Positions 1 through 8,905 of a stretch of DNA of 64,000 nucleotides are shown one piece after another. Position numbers and translations under genes: made by a program. Location of the stretch: contig NZ_LNUV01000003.1 in NCBI RefSeq assembly GCF_001512285.1, positions 223,540 to 287,539 on the forward strand, written 5' to 3'. The notes under the pieces were generated by a model that was given only the letters and a program-made list of their open reading frames with translations, was not told where the DNA came from and made no database searches. Each line of letters starts with the position of its first letter. Within the stretch, counting starts at the first letter, position 1. The stretch is from Arthrobacter sp. EpRS71 (lineage in GTDB: Bacteria; Actinomycetota; Actinomycetes; Actinomycetales; Micrococcaceae).

Positions 1-1743
1 TACGTGGGGGAAGTGGTCCGCGGCTGGCTCAGTACCCGCCGTATGCGCGAGCTGCGGCTCATGCTGCACGGTCCCGAAGAGCCCGAACTACAAGCGTTGG
101 CGCCGCAGGATCTCCTGAGCTACGCGGCGTGGATGCACGCTTCCGAAGACGAGCCCGCACCCTCGCCCGCACACGCCCTCGCGGCCGGGCGGGCGGCGCT
201 GGATGACTACGACCCCAACTTTGCCATCCAATGCACCCTGCCTTTGGACCCTCAACACAGTGAATGGGTTCCCGGGCAACGCCTGAAGGCTGCCGCCTAC
301 CTCATGCTGGACCTGCCGTTGCATGCGGTCCAAGCCCTGGATGAGGTGTCCGAGTCCCACTTGGCGTCCCTGGAACCGTTGGAGTTCGCGGAGGTCACGG
401 CAGCGAAGTGCCAGGCAATGACGTGGATTGACGGTCGTTCAGGAATGGTGCCAGGGGTGATCGCTGCCGGCCTGGATGCACTCGAAGCCAAAGCCCCGAA
501 TTATCCGGTAGAGGTCATGACCAAGGCGCGCAACCGCCTCCAACTCTGTAGCTACGAGTACAAAACCTACACAGGTGAGTACTCGGCAATGATTGAGGAT
601 TTGGAAGCCGAACTGGCCAAGGATCCGGCGGAGGACCGTGAACATTGGCTTAAGTCCTCCTTCTTCCTGATCGAGGCACGCTGCATGCTGGGCAGGGAGT
701 TGGAGGCACAACAACTCGCTCGCACCGTTTCACGGCACTTGGGGGACGCGGGCCGCCTTGCACAGTTGGAAGAATCGTTCGCCAAGCATGCATTCCTGGT
801 GCTCCTGTTGTCCGGGCAATGGCGCAAGTGCATCGAACTCATGCGCCGCACGCCCTCGGGGTCCTCGCGGCTTCAATACCGGGGTGCGCTCACTGAACTG
901 GGCGTCGGGCTCGCGTTCGCCTATGCAGGCAAGCCGGCCAGCGCGATTGAACCCCTGCGATCAGCCGTTGCTCAGCTGGAGCTCCGGCCCAGCATGAACA
1001 TGAACAAAGTTGCCTACGCTGCCACAGCTTTTGCCTACGCTCAATTGGGCAATTCCTTGGAGGCCGGACGGTACCTTGACCTCTACAGGACATGCAGGGG
1101 AGTGGGGACGTTCTTCTCCGAATCCGTAGCTGAGTTCTGTGCCGAGATGGCCGGGCGCTGGATGGGGGACCCGGAGGTGAAGCAGCGGCTGCTGGTCCGC
1201 GTACGGAACGACATTGACCAGCAGCGGTTCACCACGGCCGGCATCAACCTTTTCGGGGCCACCGTAGAAGGCACGGACGAGGAATACCGGCTGTTGGAAG
1301 ACATTGCCGGCCGCCGGCAAGGGCCCTTGGCCAAGATCTCCGGTGACCTTGCCCGCGGCGCACTGACGAAGAGCTCCCGCTCCCTGCTCGCGGCAGCTGA
1401 TGCCGCAGCATCGCTGGACCTGCTGGTAGTTGAAGCCCGATGCGTGGCCATGGCGCTTGATTACGCCAGGGACGCCGGTGAAACCACGGCCGCCCGGACA
1501 GCGCAGCTCAGGCTCGAACGGTTGGAGCATTCCGTCCCCGCATTACCCATCCAGCCACGCAGCGACGCGCCGGTATTGACCGAACGTGAACGTCAGATTG
1601 CTAAACTCGCGGGAAAGGGTGTCAGCAACCGTGAAATCGCGATGGATATTGGGGTGTCTGTGCGAACTGTAGAAGGCCATCTATACCAGGTGTTCACCAA
1701 GCTCGGCGTATCATCTCGGGGCGAGCTCCATGGGCTGCTGTGA
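1..1743 (+). CDS. LuxR-family large regulator, 5' end cut by window
   Basis: C-terminal part of a large LuxR-type (LAL-like) transcription regulator. The frame is open from base 1, so the true start is outside the window; the first in-window GTG is at base 4. About 580 residues are visible: a long alpha-helical, repeat-like middle (TPR-type by composition) and a C-terminal LuxR/GerE helix-turn-helix in the last 55 residues, with the family signature LTERERQIA, SNREIA and SVRTVEGHLYQVFTKLGV. No ATP-binding motif is visible, but the neighbour is 889 residues long and has its ATPase at the N-terminus, so that part is probably upstream of the window. The next gene follows after about 40 bp in the same direction. 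Role as a DNA-binding regulator is well supported; ligand and targets are unknown. Confidence 0.85.
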   Translation, partial: YVGEVVRGWLSTRRMRELRLMLHGPEEPELQALAPQDLLSYAAWMHASEDEPAPSPAHALAAGRAALDDYDPNFAIQCTLPLDPQHSEWVPGQRLKAAAYLMLDLPLHAVQALDEVSESHLASLEPLEFAEVTAAKCQAMTWIDGRSGMVPGVIAAGLDALEAKAPNYPVEVMTKARNRLQLCSYEYKTYTGEYSAMIEDLEAELAKDPAEDREHWLKSSFFLIEARCMLGRELEAQQLARTVSRHLGDAGRLAQLEESFAKHAFLVLLLSGQWRKCIELMRRTPSGSSRLQYRGALTELGVGLAFAYAGKPASAIEPLRSAVAQLELRPSMNMNKVAYAATAFAYAQLGNSLEAGRYLDLYRTCRGVGTFFSESVAEFCAEMAGRWMGDPEVKQRLLVRVRNDIDQQRFTTAGINLFGATVEGTDEEYRLLEDIAGRRQGPLAKISGDLARGALTKSSRSLLAAADAAASLDLLVVEARCVAMALDYARDAGETTAARTAQLRLERLEHSVPALPIQPRSDAPVLTERERQIAKLAGKGVSNREIAMDIGVSVRTVEGHLYQVFTKLGVSSRGELHGLL

Positions 1744-1784
1744 ATCAAAGCGTGGCACTTCCGTAAGCCTGGCATGGGTTGCCC

Positions 1785-4454
1785 ATGCAGGCTGAGCACC
1801 TTGTAGGCCGGGACGCGGAACTGGACCTGGCTATGGAGATTTTGAGGCAGGAAGGCGCCGGTGCCGTGCTTCTGGTTGCCGATCCCGGCATTGGCAAGAC
1901 CGCCCTGGCAGCCGAAATCGCAGCCCGCCTGGCCGGAGAAATGGTGGTGATGAGGATTCATGGGAGCCCTGCGTTATCCGCCGTTCCGTACGGCGTCCTG
2001 GCCCCTTATCTACTGGACCTCCCCGTGGAGCAAGCAACCTCGCCGGTGGCGATCCTTCGCGAGTTCTGGTCCCAGTTCGAGAGACGCCGTGGCGGCGACG
2101 GAGCGCGCCTGCTGCTGATCGTGGACGACGCCCACGACCTTGACGAAGGCAGCACCCAGATCCTGGCTGAGCTGGTCACTGCCGGATGGGCCCGCCTGGT
2201 AGCCACCAGCAGGCCTCGGCCCGGTTTGCCTGCAGCGTTGCTGCAGCTCTGGTATGACGGACTGGCGGAGCGGTTGGAGCTCCACCCCCTGGACAAGGAA
2301 AACGTTACCGAGCTGGCGGAAAAAACCCTCGGGGGAGCGGTCATGACCAGCGCCGCAGGGATCCTGCACACCATGTCCGAAGGTAACCCTTTGCTGCTTC
2401 ACTGCCTCCTTGAGGACTCGAAGACTGACGGGAACCTGGTCCGCCGGAACGGCGTGTGGCTCCTGACGCGGGCGCTCTCCGGGAGCGGAGAAAGCCTTGC
2501 CGAGGTAGTCCGCAACAGGGTCCTCCGGACCAGCGAAGCCGAACGGGAGGCAATGTACGTCATTGCCCTGTCCGAGCCCGTTCCCGCTCCCGTGGTGGAC
2601 ATGCAGGTAGGCAGGGACACCGTGCGGGCACTGATGGACAACCGGCTGGTGATCTCCTCCAACGGGCCCGGAGGGCCCCTGAAGATGTGGCACCCCCTCT
2701 ACAGCGAGGCGCTGCGGCAGATCGTTTCGCCCGCCCGCAGCCTCCAGATCCGCCAGCGCATGGTGCAGCAATTGCCGGCGGAACCGTTCACGGCGGAGGG
2801 CCTGCTGCGCACGGTGAGCTGGGCCCTGGACTGTGGTGACGCCGTCGACGACGAACAGCTGCTGGAAGCAGCTTTCCTTGCCGCGAAGACACACCAGCAC
2901 CCGCTGGCCATCGCGGCGGCGGACAAGGTCCGCTCGGACGCACTGCTGCCCCGGGCACGCGCCGTCATGGCGCTGGTCAACTACGTCGACGGCGACTACC
3001 GCGGTGCCGTCCAGCTGCTGGAAGCAGGCTCCGGGTTCCTGGACGCTGATGCTTCGGTACCCTTGGGCGCGAGCCTCTTGTGGGCAGCTGCGCGGGCCGC
3101 CGCGGGCGACTCGCCAGCTGACATTGTGGCCGATGCGTGGACTGCTGCAAAAGCCTTGATGGGCGAGCGGGAGTTGGCTGACCCTGCGCCCCTGACTATC
3201 GAAGGGAACGTACGGGCCCTGGAAGTGGCGGCACTCGCCAAGGACGGCCACTACGAGGAACTCCGCGAGAGCTTGGACCGCTTCACCGATGAGTTCGCAA
3301 AGGACGGCTGCGATCTTGCGGCACACCGGATGTTCCTGCGTGCCATGCAGTGTGAACTGCTGACGGTGGAAGGTCAGGCCGTCGAGGCAATGGACGCCGG
3401 CCGCGAGGCTTTGCTGTTGTTGGACGAGCACCACCAAGAGCATTTGTACCTCAGCGACTTCGTCCTGCTGCGCTACACACTAGCCGCCCTGGAATCCGGA
3501 GACTGGGAGGCTGCCGGGACTGGCCTTGACCGCTACGCCGCCGCTTCGGCCAGTGGACTCATCTACTTCGGGGGCGATATTGAGGCGCTCAAAGGCTTGT
3601 CATTGCTGCGTCAGGGCCGCTTGGAAAAGGCCGTAGAACTGCTGACGCCGGCCGTCGAAGCCTTGCAGCTTAGCGACCCCCTGCAGCTACGAAGCCTCGG
3701 AACCGCGCTGGCGTTTTACGCAGCGGCCAAGTCCGGCAATACCCAGCTGGCCCGGCGGTTGGAAAGTGAGCAGGGCGCCACTGCCGCCGGTGGTGCGTAC
3801 GTGGAGGCGCTCGCGGAGTTGTTCAGGCTCGCCGGGGAGGAACTTCTCACTACGGGTCAAGGGCTGCAGAAATTGCGCGACCTACCGGAAATACCGGAAT
3901 CCGGCCATCTGCACCGGCAACCAGGCATTCTGCTGCAGAACCTGGTACTCAGGGCCGAGCTCGGAGACGTGCAAGCCATGGAGTCCCTCCGGGAAACGGC
4001 ATCGTCCATGGCCGGAAGCTGGGCAACGGGCTGGGCATCCCTGGCGGCGGCACAGCTGAGCGGTGAAGGCCAAGGATTGGTGAACGCAGGTAACCTCCTG
4101 GCTGCGACCGGGATGCCCGGACCGGCCGCGGTGGCGTTCGACAAAGCGGCCCTGACTTTTGACGCCGAGGGCAAGCGGCCCGAAGCCCGGCAGGCAGCCG
4201 TACTGCGGGATGTCAGCGAGGCCGGCCTGGGCGATGCCCTGGCCCATGACCCACACGCCGAGGCTGATCGGTCCGTGCCGCTGACCCGACGCGAGCAGGA
4301 CATCGTGGCATTGGCTGTCTCGGGCCTTACCGACCGTCAGATTGCCGAGAAACTCATGGTGTCAGTCCGGACCGTGGAAGGCCACTTGTACCGGAGCTAC
4401 GCCAAACTGGGTATCCGCAGGCGGGAAGATCTGGGCGCTGCCGTCCGTCCGTGA
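1785..4454 (+). CDS. LAL-type LuxR regulator with AAA/NACHT-like ATPase
   Basis: Full-length large ATP-binding regulator of the LuxR family, 889 residues from ATG 1785 (a TTG two codons earlier is possible). Domains: P-loop ATPase with Walker A ADPGIGKTA at residues 32-40 and Walker B LLLIVDD near residue 108; a long helical repeat region; LuxR helix-turn-helix in the last 58 residues (LTRREQDIVALA, TDRQIAEKL, SVRTVEGHLYRSYAKLGI). In this family ATP binding and a ligand or partner signal usually gate DNA binding. Its HTH closely resembles that of the preceding gene, so the two look like tandem duplicates. It is likely co-transcribed with that gene. Inducer and targets cannot be read from the sequence. 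Confidence 0.9.
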   Translation: MQAEHLVGRDAELDLAMEILRQEGAGAVLLVADPGIGKTALAAEIAARLAGEMVVMRIHGSPALSAVPYGVLAPYLLDLPVEQATSPVAILREFWSQFERRRGGDGARLLLIVDDAHDLDEGSTQILAELVTAGWARLVATSRPRPGLPAALLQLWYDGLAERLELHPLDKENVTELAEKTLGGAVMTSAAGILHTMSEGNPLLLHCLLEDSKTDGNLVRRNGVWLLTRALSGSGESLAEVVRNRVLRTSEAEREAMYVIALSEPVPAPVVDMQVGRDTVRALMDNRLVISSNGPGGPLKMWHPLYSEALRQIVSPARSLQIRQRMVQQLPAEPFTAEGLLRTVSWALDCGDAVDDEQLLEAAFLAAKTHQHPLAIAAADKVRSDALLPRARAVMALVNYVDGDYRGAVQLLEAGSGFLDADASVPLGASLLWAAARAAAGDSPADIVADAWTAAKALMGERELADPAPLTIEGNVRALEVAALAKDGHYEELRESLDRFTDEFAKDGCDLAAHRMFLRAMQCELLTVEGQAVEAMDAGREALLLLDEHHQEHLYLSDFVLLRYTLAALESGDWEAAGTGLDRYAAASASGLIYFGGDIEALKGLSLLRQGRLEKAVELLTPAVEALQLSDPLQLRSLGTALAFYAAAKSGNTQLARRLESEQGATAAGGAYVEALAELFRLAGEELLTTGQGLQKLRDLPEIPESGHLHRQPGILLQNLVLRAELGDVQAMESLRETASSMAGSWATGWASLAAAQLSGEGQGLVNAGNLLAATGMPGPAAVAFDKAALTFDAEGKRPEARQAAVLRDVSEAGLGDALAHDPHAEADRSVPLTRREQDIVALAVSGLTDRQIAEKLMVSVRTVEGHLYRSYAKLGIRRREDLGAAVRP

Positions 4455-4489
4455 CGCCGGCACCTGAGTACCCGCATAACTGACGCCAA

Positions 4490-4550
4490 AAACACCCATC
4501 CTTGGAACCACGCGGATTTAACCAATCAATGGAGTAATGCGTGGGTGTTT
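4490..4550 (+). terminator. Possible terminator or operator dyad after second LAL gene
   Basis: Perfect 9-bp inverted repeat AAACACCCA (4490-4498) and TGGGTGTTT (4542-4550), with a second overlapping pair CCACGC/GCGTGG inside. It starts 35 bp after the stop codon. The loop is long (43 nt), so termination is uncertain and a protein-binding role is possible. Confidence 0.35.
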
Positions 4551-4790
4551 CGTGTCGGGACCAAGTAGTGCCCTGTCAGGGGACTGAGTACAACAGAGTA
4601 CCGGGGGCGCAAAAGCAGTCGGTTTTTCGAGTACCAACTACTGATGTACGGCAAGTTGCTCCCCGGCAGTATTGATCTTGGAAGAACGGTTCAGCCCCAA
4701 GCATCACCGGGATTCCGAAAATCGCATCACCCGCATCGGAGGTCTCTTGAGCCGATGCTCCGGCCACCGACTGGTGGTCCGGCCCTGTAC

Positions 4791-4851
4791 GAAGCCGGCG
4801 GCGACAGAGTCTTCTGAGACCGAGACTCTCCCCCCAGCCGCCGCCGGCTTC
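4791..4851 (+). repeat. Nested hairpin upstream of third LAL gene
   Basis: Outer arms GAAGCCGGCGGCG (4791-4803) and CGCCGCCGGCTTC (4839-4851) pair perfectly over 13 bp. Inner arms AGAGTCT (4806-4812) and AGACTCT (4823-4829) pair over 7 bp with a 10-nt loop. A separate dyad, CCGGCCACC against GGTGG-T-CCGG, sits just upstream at 4760-4782. The structure ends 75 bp before the next start codon. There is no T-run, so it may be a leader or processing structure rather than a simple terminator. Confidence 0.55.
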
Positions 4852-4925
4852 TAGGCCAGGTACCCCGCCCACCGCGGACCCCGTAAACCCCTCCCGGATC
4901 CTGGGACATTGCTAATGGAGTGTGC

Positions 4926-7481
4926 ATGTTGCCGGACCCTTGGCTGGACGAAGACACCGTCGCAGCTGGTCTGAGGCCATCAACATTTCCGGATAGAGCG
5001 CAACTCCTGGACCTCATCCTGTCAGCCGTACCGTCCACGACCACCAACGGCATCGTGGTGGTGGGGGAGCGGGGTTCCGGGAAGAGCCACCTTCTGCTCG
5101 CTGTCAAAGAAGGACTCCCCAAAACCATGGACGTCCGCACCTTCACCGGAAAACCGGAACGGAGGGCCCTGAATTTCGGGGCTTTGGGTGCCATTTCCGC
5201 AGCGGAAGCGGACGAGGCCGTAGCGCCGGGCCTCCACGTCCTCAGGGCCCTGACCAATACTCTGGGGCCGGCCGACTACTTGTACAAGCCACCACGTGGA
5301 CGACGCCGGAGCAAGCGGCAAGTTCAACCGGCACGGCCGCAGCTGGTCCTGTTGGTGGACGATATCCATTACGTCGATCCGGCCTCCCTGGCGGTCCTGC
5401 TGCAACTCATTCCCGGCTTCGGTGCCACCTTGGTTGCCACGGCAGAAAGTCGCCACCCCCTGCCACCAGATCTTTACCAGCTCTGGGAAGACGGTTTTCT
5501 GGAGCAGTATTTCCTGCCACCCTTTACGTTCAGTGAGGCACATGCTCTGTGCGAGTCCGTCCTTGGCGGGCAGGTGCAACGACGTGCGAGCAGCCTCCTT
5601 GCCGCCCTGAGCGGCTTCAACGTTGGGGTGTTATGCCTCGCCGTCAACGACGCACGCCGCTCCGGTTTCCTGGTCCGTAGTGATGGTTACTGGACCATCG
5701 ATGTCCGCGCGCACTGTGACTGGCCCGGCGTGGTTGAGCACGTGCGGGCTGAGAACATCTCACGCCCGCCGGAAGAGCGCCAGGCCCTGGAACTCATCGC
5801 GCTCTCGGAACCCGTGGCCCTGGAGGTGGTGGAGCACCACTTCGGCCGGAAAGCCGTGGACCATCTCCTCGCGAATCACGACATCAGGGTGCTGCCCGGC
5901 CAGCCCCCGCTCCTCCGCACGAGCTCGTGGCTGCGAGGCGAAGGAACCCGGCTGTCCGTACCGCATTCCAGGAGCCTGGCCCTCCGGTTGGGTGTGGAGG
6001 AACCCGGGCTGACCACCGAGACGGCGCCCACCATGCTGCGATGGATCACGTGGACCCTGGACTGCGGGCTGACGCTCTCTGATGAACTTCTCCTCGCTGC
6101 AGCCCCCGCCGCTGACAGGCCGTCGACCGCCGAACTTGCACTCAGGGCCGCCTCGGCAGTGACCGGTGCCGATCATCGTGACGAAGCCAGGCTGGTCAGA
6201 GCACGGGCGTTGATCGCCGAAGGCCACGTCCGTGAAGCAGGCCCGGAACTCCGGCAGTTGGCAAGCACGGGCGGCCCCACCGAAGTGAAGATCGGCGCCG
6301 CCCACCGTCTGGTGGCACTGGGTCTGTTGGGCGCCGCACCTGGGGCGACAGAGGGCGCCCCTGGGGAAACGGATCCGGCTGTGGTGGATCCCGCTGTCGC
6401 GGATGCTGCCGGGTTGGAGCCTGCCGGGCTGGATCCCGCTGCGCTGATTGTGGAGAACCTGCACGCTGCGGAGCGTCTGCTCCTGTCCGGGGCGGCGTCG
6501 GAAGCGTTGCAACGGTCCTCGGCTGCCATGGAAGCCATCAAGGCCAACCCAAGCTTGGACATGTTCCTGCCGGGCGCGCTGCTACGCCACGTGATGGGCC
6601 TGCGGTACAACGTGGCTTGGGAACTGGTGGATCCGCTCCTGGGCACTCCCGCCGACTACACCATGCCAGCGCACCTCTCGGTGTGCCTGGACGTGGCACG
6701 CGGTTACGTCCAGCTTAGCCAAGGACTCCCACGCGCAGCCCGTGCCACCTTGGAGCCGGTCTTGGCAGAACTGCACGACGCCGGACTGCCGCACGTGCTC
6801 GCTCTGGCTGCGGCGCTGCTGGCCTACTCTGAGGCGCTGTGCGGAAACACTCCGCAGGCCATGGCAAGAGTCCGGCAAAGCATAGCTGTGCAAGAAGCTG
6901 CGCAGGGATCCGCGCCAGAATTCGCTGACCATTCTGCGGGCAAGGATCCAGCCGATCTGGTGCCCCAGGCTGGTTTGTTGACCCGGCCCGGCTTGTTGAC
7001 CCAGCTCAGCGCCGTGTACGCCGCGGCCGCCCAGGACCAAGCGGCCGGCACGTCACGTCATCTGGTGGCGCTTGCGGACCACTTACACTCCCAGGGCAGC
7101 ACCTTGCTGGAAGCAGAGGCGTTCTCCCTCCTGACCTTGAATGTTGCCAGTACCGCCGTCGACGACCCCGCGATCCAGCGCCGCCTCGGCGCGCTGGCAG
7201 CAGCTCTGCACGGTCCGGGCGGGGCAGCGCTGGGGACGTTTGCTGCCGCCCTGGTGGACAACGATCCCAAAGCGTTTGAGGCGGCGGGCCGGAGCCTGTC
7301 CGCGGACCGGCAGTTTGCCCATGCGGCCCTGTGCTATTCGCGGGCCGCTGCGGGTTACGAGGCCAGGACCCGGGCTGCTGCCAGCCGCCGGGCCTCGGTG
7401 CTCCTTGAGAGGCTCCGGAGCGCCTTCGACAGCGGGATCGTTCCACCGCTGGGCTGGGTACCCGGGAGGGCCGGCGGCTGA
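4926..7481 (+). CDS. LAL-like P-loop ATPase without a LuxR HTH
   Basis: 851 residues from ATG 4926; the GGAG at 4917-4920 sits 5 bp upstream and decides this start. The N-terminus has Walker A GERGSGKSH (about residues 47-56) and Walker B LVLLVDD (about 140-147), followed by helical repeats as in the LAL regulators next door. The C-terminus stops at a Gly/Ala/Pro-rich tail with no LuxR helix-turn-helix, unlike its two neighbours. Two low-complexity inserts are visible: DPAVVDPAV and AGLEPAGLDPAAL (about residues 483-507), and GLLTRPGLLTQ near residue 685. It could be a signalling ATPase that works with the adjacent regulators, or a regulator that has lost its DNA-binding domain. Function not established. 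Confidence 0.8.
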   Translation: MLPDPWLDEDTVAAGLRPSTFPDRAQLLDLILSAVPSTTTNGIVVVGERGSGKSHLLLAVKEGLPKTMDVRTFTGKPERRALNFGALGAISAAEADEAVAPGLHVLRALTNTLGPADYLYKPPRGRRRSKRQVQPARPQLVLLVDDIHYVDPASLAVLLQLIPGFGATLVATAESRHPLPPDLYQLWEDGFLEQYFLPPFTFSEAHALCESVLGGQVQRRASSLLAALSGFNVGVLCLAVNDARRSGFLVRSDGYWTIDVRAHCDWPGVVEHVRAENISRPPEERQALELIALSEPVALEVVEHHFGRKAVDHLLANHDIRVLPGQPPLLRTSSWLRGEGTRLSVPHSRSLALRLGVEEPGLTTETAPTMLRWITWTLDCGLTLSDELLLAAAPAADRPSTAELALRAASAVTGADHRDEARLVRARALIAEGHVREAGPELRQLASTGGPTEVKIGAAHRLVALGLLGAAPGATEGAPGETDPAVVDPAVADAAGLEPAGLDPAALIVENLHAAERLLLSGAASEALQRSSAAMEAIKANPSLDMFLPGALLRHVMGLRYNVAWELVDPLLGTPADYTMPAHLSVCLDVARGYVQLSQGLPRAARATLEPVLAELHDAGLPHVLALAAALLAYSEALCGNTPQAMARVRQSIAVQEAAQGSAPEFADHSAGKDPADLVPQAGLLTRPGLLTQLSAVYAAAAQDQAAGTSRHLVALADHLHSQGSTLLEAEAFSLLTLNVASTAVDDPAIQRRLGALAAALHGPGGAALGTFAAALVDNDPKAFEAAGRSLSADRQFAHAALCYSRAAAGYEARTRAAASRRASVLLERLRSAFDSGIVPPLGWVPGRAGG

Positions 7482-7579: not shown

Positions 7580-8905
7580 TTGACTGCCGTATCAACTCCC
7601 GCCTCACTGCAACGATCCATGCATGCCATGGACAACGCGGAGGTGTTGCGGATCCGGAATGATTTCCCGGTGCTGGACCAGCTGGTCAACGGTAAACCTC
7701 TGATCTACCTTGACTCCGGCGCTACGTCGCAAAACCCGCTCAGCGTCATTGAAGCCGAGCAGGAGTACTACGAGCAACGCAACGCTGCCGTTCACCGTGG
7801 CGCCCACCACCTTGCCGTGGAAGCCACGGAGGTCTTTGAGGACGCGCGCCAGACCGTGGCGGACTTCATCGGAGCGCAGTATGAGGAAACCGTGTGGACC
7901 TCCAACGCCACGGAGGGCCTCAACCTCATCAGCTACGCCCTGTCCAACGCCGCGTTGTGGGCAGCCCAGGGACGTGGCGGTTCGGCGCTAAAGGAACTCG
8001 CGATTGGTCCTGGCGACGAGATCGTGGTCACGGAAATGGAACACCACGCCAACCTCATTCCCTGGCAGGAACTTGCCTTCCGGACCGGTGCCACGCTGAG
8101 GTACATCCCCATTGCGGACGATGGCTCCCTGAGGCTGGAGGCAGCGGCGGAGATCGTGGGGGATCGGACTAAACTCCTCGCTTTCAGCCACGCCTCCAAC
8201 GTCCTGGGCACCATCAACCCCGTAGCTCAGCTCGTTTCCATGGCCCGCCGGGTCGGAGCCTTGGTTGTCTTGGACGCCTGCCAGTCCGTGCCGCACATGG
8301 CCGTTGACGTGAAGGGACTGGACGTCGATTTCGCCGTGTTCTCCGGCCACAAGATGTTGGCCCCCACCGGCGTCGGTGTCCTGTACGGGAAGCAGGACCT
8401 GCTGGATGTCCTGCCGCCGTTCCTGACGGGCGGGTCCATGATCACCACGGTCACTATGGAACGGGCAGAATACCTGCCCGCACCACAGCGGTTCGAGGCC
8501 GGAACCCAGCGCATCTCCCAAGCGGTGGCCCTGGCAACTGCAGTTAATTACCTTACTGAGACCGGCATGGACCGCATCCACGCGTGGGAGTCCACCCTGG
8601 GTCAGCGTCTGGTCAAAGGGCTGGAGGGCATTGATGGCATTCGCGTGGTTGGTCCTGCGTCCGGTACCGAACGGATCGGGCTGGCAGCCTTCGACGTCGC
8701 CGGTGTCCACGCGCACGACGTCGGCCAGTTCCTGGATGACCGAGGCATCGCCGTTCGCGTGGGCCACCACTGTGCCCAGCCGCTGCACCGCCGCCTGGGC
8801 CTGACGGCAACCACCCGTGCCAGCACCTACCTTTACAACACCACGGACGATGTCGACGCTTTCCTCGACGCCGTCTCGGGTGTCCGGGCCTACTTCCAGG
8901 CCTGA
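7580..8905 (+). CDS. sufS: SufS-type cysteine desulfurase
   Basis: PLP-dependent cysteine desulfurase of the group II (SufS/Csd) family, which takes sulfur from L-cysteine as a persulfide for Fe-S cluster assembly. 441 residues from TTG 7580, chosen because AAGGAG lies at 7568-7573 with 6-bp spacing; ATG 7619 is the alternative. PLP lysine is in SGHKM (K258) and the persulfide-forming cysteine is in RVGHHCAQP (C398). The motif TSNATEGLN is also typical. sufU follows after 66 bp on the same strand, as in many Gram-positive bacteria. sufBCD are not in the window, so this may be a separate or second desulfurase locus. Confidence 0.95.
   Translation: MTAVSTPASLQRSMHAMDNAEVLRIRNDFPVLDQLVNGKPLIYLDSGATSQNPLSVIEAEQEYYEQRNAAVHRGAHHLAVEATEVFEDARQTVADFIGAQYEETVWTSNATEGLNLISYALSNAALWAAQGRGGSALKELAIGPGDEIVVTEMEHHANLIPWQELAFRTGATLRYIPIADDGSLRLEAAAEIVGDRTKLLAFSHASNVLGTINPVAQLVSMARRVGALVVLDACQSVPHMAVDVKGLDVDFAVFSGHKMLAPTGVGVLYGKQDLLDVLPPFLTGGSMITTVTMERAEYLPAPQRFEAGTQRISQAVALATAVNYLTETGMDRIHAWESTLGQRLVKGLEGIDGIRVVGPASGTERIGLAAFDVAGVHAHDVGQFLDDRGIAVRVGHHCAQPLHRRLGLTATTRASTYLYNTTDDVDAFLDAVSGVRAYFQA

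Follow-up and report, generated by a model that had tools for sequence, protein, structure and literature searches.

This locus raises the question of what a LAL-type protein without a DNA-binding domain may do beside two regulators that possess one. The analysed stretch, referred to here as the window (G000:C3:223540-287539; 64,000 nt), opens with three genes of the same strand, P1, P2 and P3, at the positions given in a preliminary description. They are followed by a gene for a sufS-like cysteine desulfurase (7580..8905, + strand), named by recognition and used as a syntenic landmark.

Gene content of the locus and absence of an HTH in P3

The gene order is pth - P1 - P2 - P3 - sufS - sufU - nhaA, where the marker genes pth, sufS, sufU and nhaA are presumed identifications, made by recognition. 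The intergenic gaps measure 35 nt (P1-P2), 465 nt (P2-P3) and 98 nt (P3-sufS). P1 (1..1743, + strand) is a LAL regulator with a LuxR helix-turn-helix domain (HTH), represented in the window by the C-terminal 580 of its 912 residues (Pfam, upstream sequence). The preliminary description had treated it as a gene of this stretch; it is present, but cut by the window edge, and its start codon lies 996 nt further upstream, at L001:7545. Both Walker motifs of P1 fall 5′ of the window, Walker A being intact and Walker B reading D-N. P2 (1779..4454, + strand) encodes a LAL regulator of 891 aa, in which both Walker motifs are complete and a LuxR HTH forms the C-terminus, and P3 (4920..7481, + strand) an 853-aa LAL paralogue of the P2 type, a candidate STAND protein, without an HTH.

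Two features were used to recognize LAL regulators: (i) an N-terminal P-loop ATPase domain, detected in P2 and P3 as AAA_16 (2e-12 and 1.5e-10, respectively; Pfam) and in P1, whose window part was covered by the Pfam search, as the Walker A lysine of the full protein, and (ii) a C-terminal LuxR/GerE HTH (PF00196), found in P1 (1.2e-13, 580 window residues) and P2 (7.2e-11) and lacking in P3. The latter is therefore a LAL paralogue and not a LAL regulator. The earlier account of three LAL-type genes was partly confirmed: two of them end in a LuxR HTH, and the third combines the ATPase and helical repeats with no HTH family at E values up to 0.1 (Pfam). The two HTHs, described as near-identical, share 53% identity over the 51 residues compared, and the ATPase halves of P1, P2 and P3 are only 27-32% identical to one another.

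The lack of an HTH is common to the P3 proteins examined. No HTH family was detected up to E 1 in 15 P3 orthologues (that of the window and 14 others; Pfam), and the HTH core motif occurs in 0 of 32 intact P3 proteins, including the copy analysed here, vs 59/59 P1 proteins, 57/59 P2 proteins, and 17/17 and 16/16 proteins of an extra LAL pair. These motif counts take in 32 of the 33 P3; L081 (broken ORFs), the split P3 of genome G174 and ORFs shorter than 780 aa were left out of the counts and of the tree. In G174 (L073), P3 is divided into two overlapping ORFs of 225 and 668 aa, by a frameshift either in the assembly or in the gene.

Orthologues of P3 (58-100% identity; 32 intact) were found in 33 of 198 genomes of the genus. 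Among the matches listed, the other matches to P3 within the genus are 29-35% identical, and those that were placed are P2 genes. Within the sampled family, which we take to be the Micrococcaceae, 4 of 197 genomes, our own included, matched P3 with an E value of at most 1e-45, and these 4 belong to the one genus; the 14 named loci with a P3 relative are Arthrobacter and Paenarthrobacter records. We examined the loci of all 33 carriers (our own and 32 others), together with 28 non-carrier loci. The compact order pth-P1-P2-P3-sufS was observed in 31 of the 33 carriers, including our own genome. The two exceptions are a short contig with P2-P3 only and L052, in which 9 kb are inserted between P2 and P3 (inspection of this insert yielded nothing of use). 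In the 28 non-carrier loci, pth is followed by P1-P2 or by four LAL genes, whose products have an HTH wherever the ORFs are intact; P3 is absent.

These data bear on the suggestion, made in the preliminary description, that P3 is a conserved HTH-less partner, possibly a sensor, a dominant-negative subunit or an ATPase that loads onto P1 and P2, to be abandoned if related genomes carried a full-length version or if synteny was not conserved. No HTH-bearing full-length orthologue was found at the 33 carrier loci, which led us to reject a local truncation, and the gene order is held. Loss of the HTH by a frameshift just 3′ of P3 was also rejected, given the short P3-sufS gap and the absence of an HTH in the P3 loci of the 32 other carriers. 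The suggestion is partly supported: P3 is conserved without an HTH in the 33 carriers, but within the genomes sampled it is confined to one clade of one genus.

Selection, origin and predicted fold of P3

As judged from its sequence, P3 is a protein of P2 type that has lost the HTH and is under selection. Its dN/dS is 0.15-0.19 in all 10 pairs compared (0.08-0.21 for the last 110 codons), vs 0.04-0.07 for P1 and 0.06-0.15 for P2, and it is the fastest evolving of the three genes in 9 of the 10 pairs. The N-terminus (MLPDPWLDED) is conserved, M(C/R)MLPDPW being among the most conserved stretches, and GW(V/L)PG is found near the C-terminus in 31 of 32 proteins. The last 13 residues show 88% conservation vs an average of 78%, yet they rank only 151st of 841 windows. 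The Walker A lysine is retained in 32/32 P3 proteins and the Walker B DD in 31/32. The lost HTH, the fast evolution and the one split copy might suggest a decaying relic of a LAL gene; the dN/dS values, on which we rejected this explanation, the intact Walker motifs (31/32) and the conserved ends make it highly improbable.

In a quick tree (68 of 183 proteins), P3 forms one clade, sister to all P2 (SH-aLRT 100 and 96). P1, P2, P3 and two extra classes each form one group, with a support of only 73 for P2′. Long branches were flagged in this tree, and the branching order of P3 is unsure because of its long stem (1.59). Comparison of profiles aligned columns 19-789 (of 820) of P3 with 4-808 (of 891) of P2, so that the match ends just short of the P2 HTH at 834. 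STAND NTPases combine a nucleotide-binding domain (NBD), a winged helix and superhelical sensor repeats, and their oligomerisation is driven by ligand and ATP. In the AlphaFold2 model of P3 (mean pLDDT 74.7), helical repeats, predicted with confidence, extend to residue 838 and are followed by a 15-residue tail and no HTH; the NBD has low pLDDT. The closest solved fold is the STAND-TPR protein 6mfv (E 1.8e-5, but TM-scores of 0.15-0.18 and 12% identity), which has an NBD and helical repeats as P3 does and is not known to carry an HTH. A PDB search with the P2 profile returned, among the 60 matches listed and apart from one differently named chain, HTH and Clp/AAA proteins only.

It is conceivable that P3, having arisen by duplication beside P2, is an independent STAND-TPR sensor with a partner other than P1 or P2, and that its conserved ends dock another protein. 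The fold of 6mfv, low TM-scores notwithstanding, both conserved terminal motifs, and the distance of P3 from the closely spaced P1-P2 unit are consistent with such independence, which is opposed by the position of P3 next to P1-P2 in 31 of the 33 carriers and by its intact, P2-type NBD. We consider that P3 working alone is a possibility to be taken seriously, nearly as likely as the proposal developed below, in which P3 is a feedback subunit of P1/P2 oligomers.

The two HTH-bearing proteins differ in their ATPase motifs. A normal Walker B acid pair is missing from 57 of 59 P1 proteins, and all 59 P2 proteins carry DD at Walker B. Since P1 keeps the Walker A lysine, nearly always without the acid pair, it probably binds ATP, which P2 probably hydrolyses, in a mixed oligomer. 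On the basis of these motifs, P1 and P2 may be a working pair with divided ATP roles. The two genes overlap by 4 nt in several other genera (e.g. L203, L205, L207). In genomes with four LAL genes (among L080-L105), the Walker A lysine is missing from 14 of 16 P2 proteins, and 12 of 16 P1 proteins have GKA, often with an altered Walker B; motif loss is complementary within one LAL pair.

A structured RNA between P2 and P3 and its genomic context

The 465-nt gap between P2 and P3 contains a conserved RNA, a more widespread element that was absent from the preliminary description. The gap also holds a terminator-like inverted repeat 3′ of P2 (window about 4490-4551; AAACACCCA...GTGGGTGTTT); it is not kept in the aligned P3 carriers and was therefore dropped as a functional element, and nothing was built on it. 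A conserved block 5′ of the RNA (4560..4602, + strand; CCAAGTAGT..., GAGTACAACAGAGTACC), identified in an alignment of 32 carriers with L052 left out, is a candidate control region. Three hairpins, H1-H3 (4674..4782, + strand), as kept in the P3 carriers, precede H4 (4791..4851, + strand), which is the core of the RNA family. H4 consists of a 13-bp outer stem, an 8-bp inner stem, the loop GAGACC (4816-4821) and a C-rich internal loop on the 3′ side. The loop of H2 holds GGTCTC (4741-4746), and H3 shows two-sided changes at 4 pairs. Mean column identity of the block 4656-4858 is 91% (25 carriers).

The RNA has folding z-scores of -2.8 and -3.4, and base pairing is supported by two alignments. 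In alignment A1 (18 distinct sequences of the genus, aligned with MAFFT and free of model fitting), 99.7% of the cells pair and 5 pairs show a two-sided change. Alignment A6 comprises 75 rows from 76 loci, chosen among those at hand (E<=1e-5) and fitted to the model; it contains one locus twice (L096 and L137), and the neighbour counts below refer to 74 distinct copies. In 68 distinct copies, 98.2% of the cells pair and 19 of the 21 base pairs change on both sides, with 187 two-sided cells observed, compared with 43.7 after shuffling and no more than 24 in slid controls. Of the five measures taken, only the count of further pair types showed no excess over shuffles in A1 (11 vs 12.2); in A6 this count was 52 vs 31.9. 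The wobble pairs agree with the plus strand. Without a strict cut-off, the model also matches the opposite strand of the palindromic hairpin, with E values down to 3e-4. No family of Rfam 15 reached its gathering score anywhere in the window, and in permissive scans of three RNA stretches all matches were far below the gathering scores, the lowest E value being 0.0075 (CcsR1, directly 3′ of the hairpin in L106). The P2-P3 gap holds a structured RNA with base-pairing support that matches no Rfam family.

Used as the query of a DNA search, 321 nt of the P2-P3 gap matched 186 of 198 genomes of the genus. The 33 P3 carriers match over about 300 nt, and the non-carriers among the matches listed over 53-90 nt of the hairpin (83-95% identity for matches of 55-90 nt). 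The 12 genomes missed in this search are those with four LAL genes, and the covariance model detected a diverged copy in each of them (E 5e-6 to 0.012), with an identical loop, CUGAGACC, in the two shown. In the family sample, a cut-off of E<=0.01 gave the RNA in 102 of 197 genomes and 19 of 32 genera with this model, and one of E<=1e-5 in 88 genomes and 17 genera; in an order-wide sample it was present in 12 of 248 genomes, all within the same family. A single copy is present in our own genome. In L211, L214, L218 and L242, an additional and more diverged copy was noticed before P1, about 6-7 kb upstream of the main one (between pth and P1 in the last three), and the LAL pair itself may therefore carry the element in its own leader.

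The neighbours of the RNA were identified by tblastn with our own proteins and three sugar transferases, at most 1.5 kb upstream and 1.8 kb downstream and often less; the copies are related by descent, so that the counts do not represent independent events. For 51 of the 74 distinct copies (27 of 40 within the genus and 24 of 34 outside it), a same-strand LAL match ends upstream at a distance of under 700 nt; no LAL match within 700 nt was found for the remaining 23. The best match within 1.8 kb downstream was a sugar transferase in 24 cases, sufS in 24, a LAL gene in 5, P3 in 3 (only 3 of the 33 P3 carriers entered this count) and another gene in 18. Two of the sugar transferases, when tested, matched Bac_transf (PF02397; 1e-48 and 4e-51); other neighbours tested with Pfam include an ANTAR protein, a polysaccharide deacetylase and an MBL-fold protein. 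ORFs similar to sugar-nucleotide dehydrogenases or epimerases follow (by eye) in 2 of the 3 longer loci with four LAL genes. Across the family, the arrangement LAL pair - RNA/leader - polysaccharide gene is found repeatedly; the RNA locus of this genus often lacks the polysaccharide gene. A role of sufS as the target of the RNA was weakened, because different genes follow the RNA in other genera.

ANTAR proteins bind RNA hairpins, their targets being two tandem hairpins with six-base loops of a fixed pattern. Two extra copies of the RNA (L223:8280-8346 and L224:4118-4184; Pfam on L224) lie where a gene encoding an ANTAR-type protein begins, and RNA and protein may therefore form a pair there.

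A candidate operator, GAGTAC-N3-CTAC-N2-GTG, is located upstream of the RNA (4629..4646, + strand; 1 mismatch here), 157 nt before the hairpin, vs 84-325 nt in relatives. With up to 2 mismatches, it precedes 38 of the 74 distinct copies, vs a mean of 0.25 in a crude block shuffle, and it is found in 37 of 52 rows with a LAL match and 2 of 23 rows without one.

In some relatives the RNA lies inside a small, putative leader ORF. The arrangement GGTCTC-N1-4-ATG is present in 23 of the 74 distinct upstream regions (the next unrelated 6-mer: 6), and GGUCUC is complementary to the hairpin loop GAGACC. The ORF crosses the hairpin in the GAG-ACC frame in 20 of the 23 cases, the other 3 small ORFs being out of frame, and in 15 of the 20 it ends in a stop codon that overlaps the beginning of a second ORF, of at least 315 aa. 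When L209 (two hairpins, one ORF) is counted once, 19 are in frame and 14 overlap, in 5 genera. This count used 69 of the 75 rows, the six without an exact GAGACC being left out. At these 14 loci the long ORF that follows is mostly a sugar transferase, and the same stop/start overlap occurs at four further hairpins without GGTCTC-ATG. In plain counts near the RNA, GGTCTC ranks 41st among 6-mers, because G+C-rich words are common; it lies near 38 of the 75 rows and its reverse complement near 8. It is absent within 450 nt upstream or 250 nt downstream in 14 of 24 distinct sufS-type copies. In the P3 carriers GGTCTC occurs in the H2 loop instead (24/24 distinct sequences); GGUCUC and GAGACC are invariant there, so that covariation lends no support to their pairing. 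In each of the 25 aligned carriers, a stop codon directly follows the hairpin in its reading frame, and consequently no leader ORF is coupled to P3.

The constant frame in which the ORF crosses the hairpin at polysaccharide-type loci could mean that the hairpin is conserved as the code of a small peptide rather than as RNA. This appears very unlikely, considering (i) the covariation of 19 of 21 pairs, (ii) the varying length of the C-tract, which shifts the 3′ frame, and (iii) the lack of the GGTCTC-ATG start in all 3 tested rows of P3 type and in 20 of the 24 distinct sufS-type copies, in which the hairpin is nearly invariant.

Alternatively, the RNA could be transcribed from a promoter of its own and act in trans as a free small RNA, the neighbouring genes being incidental. 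The sufS-type genomes retain the hairpin with no polysaccharide gene adjoining it, which a purely cis-acting leader role leaves unexplained; up to 5 matches occur per genome, and the internal loop is C-rich. Genome G071 has a second copy (G071:C7:1516838-1517016, minus strand; within L155, G071:C7:1514500-1519500) that includes the upstream conserved block, is situated away from LAL genes and adjoins PAP2-like and flavoprotein-like ORFs (by eye). We regard a free small RNA as a real, although not the favoured, possibility: the leader-ORF frame and the start/stop overlaps (15/20) point to a cis role in relatives, and over two-thirds of the copies (51/74) lie behind a LAL match.

Proposed circuit and comparison with known systems

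The reading that we put forward, tentatively and as somewhat less than probable, is that of a LAL-pair/leader-RNA regulatory locus in which P3 is a partner unable to bind DNA. We infer each of its regulatory steps, including the role of P3. The locus would represent the form that regulation by a LAL pair takes in Arthrobacter/Paenarthrobacter. Through their HTHs, P1 and P2 would probably act at the conserved candidate site before the hairpin and drive a transcript starting with the structured RNA. In some relatives, the GAGACC loop may pair with GGUCUC just before the start codon of the leader ORF, in which case folding of the RNA would limit expression of the leader and, through coupling, of the following gene. 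The place of the polysaccharide gene behind the RNA is taken, in this clade, by P3, which for this reason seems well placed to serve as the output of the pair and to feed back on it; it would most likely join P1/P2 oligomers as a non-DNA-binding subunit and damp or retune them.

A more far-reaching version is that of a so far undescribed, family-wide circuit, in which a binding-only and a hydrolysing LAL protein, as an obligate pair, control a leader RNA whose loop pairs with the ribosome-binding site of the leader ORF; this ORF would be coupled to polysaccharide synthesis, and the Paenarthrobacter-like output slot would be taken by an HTH-less LAL protein feeding back. We consider this unlikely in its entirety. 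If the tentative reading is right, the locus offers a testable case of LAL/STAND regulators that are paired and tuned by a copy without a DNA-binding domain. The covarying RNA, which remains below Rfam thresholds and occurs in 19 of the 32 sampled genera of the family, links LAL regulators to surface-polysaccharide genes and makes this link directly testable in soil bacteria that are harmless. We found no description of the RNA or of an HTH-less LAL partner in the open-licence PMC literature, which is no proof of absence.

MalT of E. coli, a STAND regulator with a LuxR HTH, has ATPase, winged-helix and helical sensor regions, a layout that P1, P2 and P3 probably share; P1 and P2 also have the C-terminal HTH. 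Unlike in MalT, there are two to four HTH-bearing copies here, plus an HTH-less one in one clade; to our knowledge, MalT works without such copies beside its gene. The NCBIfam MalT model matches P1 and P2 in the HTH only. MalT is reported to be controlled through blocked oligomerisation (PMC10427625). The best two NCBIfam matches of P2 are the LAL regulators AbsR2 (NF050132; 111.2 bits) and IniR (NF038181; 41 bits), whose curated cut-offs are much higher (850 and 750 bits, respectively); P3 scores 43.6 bits with the AbsR2 equivalog, so that both proteins stay below its threshold. LuxR-like proteins of an Arthrobacter have been surveyed, and two of those reported are without a conserved C-terminal domain (PMC9659744).

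Two systems resemble the RNA part of the locus. In LoaP/dfn, a leader hairpin ahead of long operons is involved in antitermination (PMC12691694); the dfn hairpin is of the UNCG type and is bound by a NusG paralogue, unlike the hairpin described here. LoaP-like antitermination was weakened by the single NusG match that our own genome holds. The control of iraD by CsrA acts via a short upstream ORF that is translationally coupled to the next gene (PMC5574718), an arrangement similar to that of the candidate leader ORFs described here, with the difference that the repressor is a protein in that system and a candidate RNA loop in ours.
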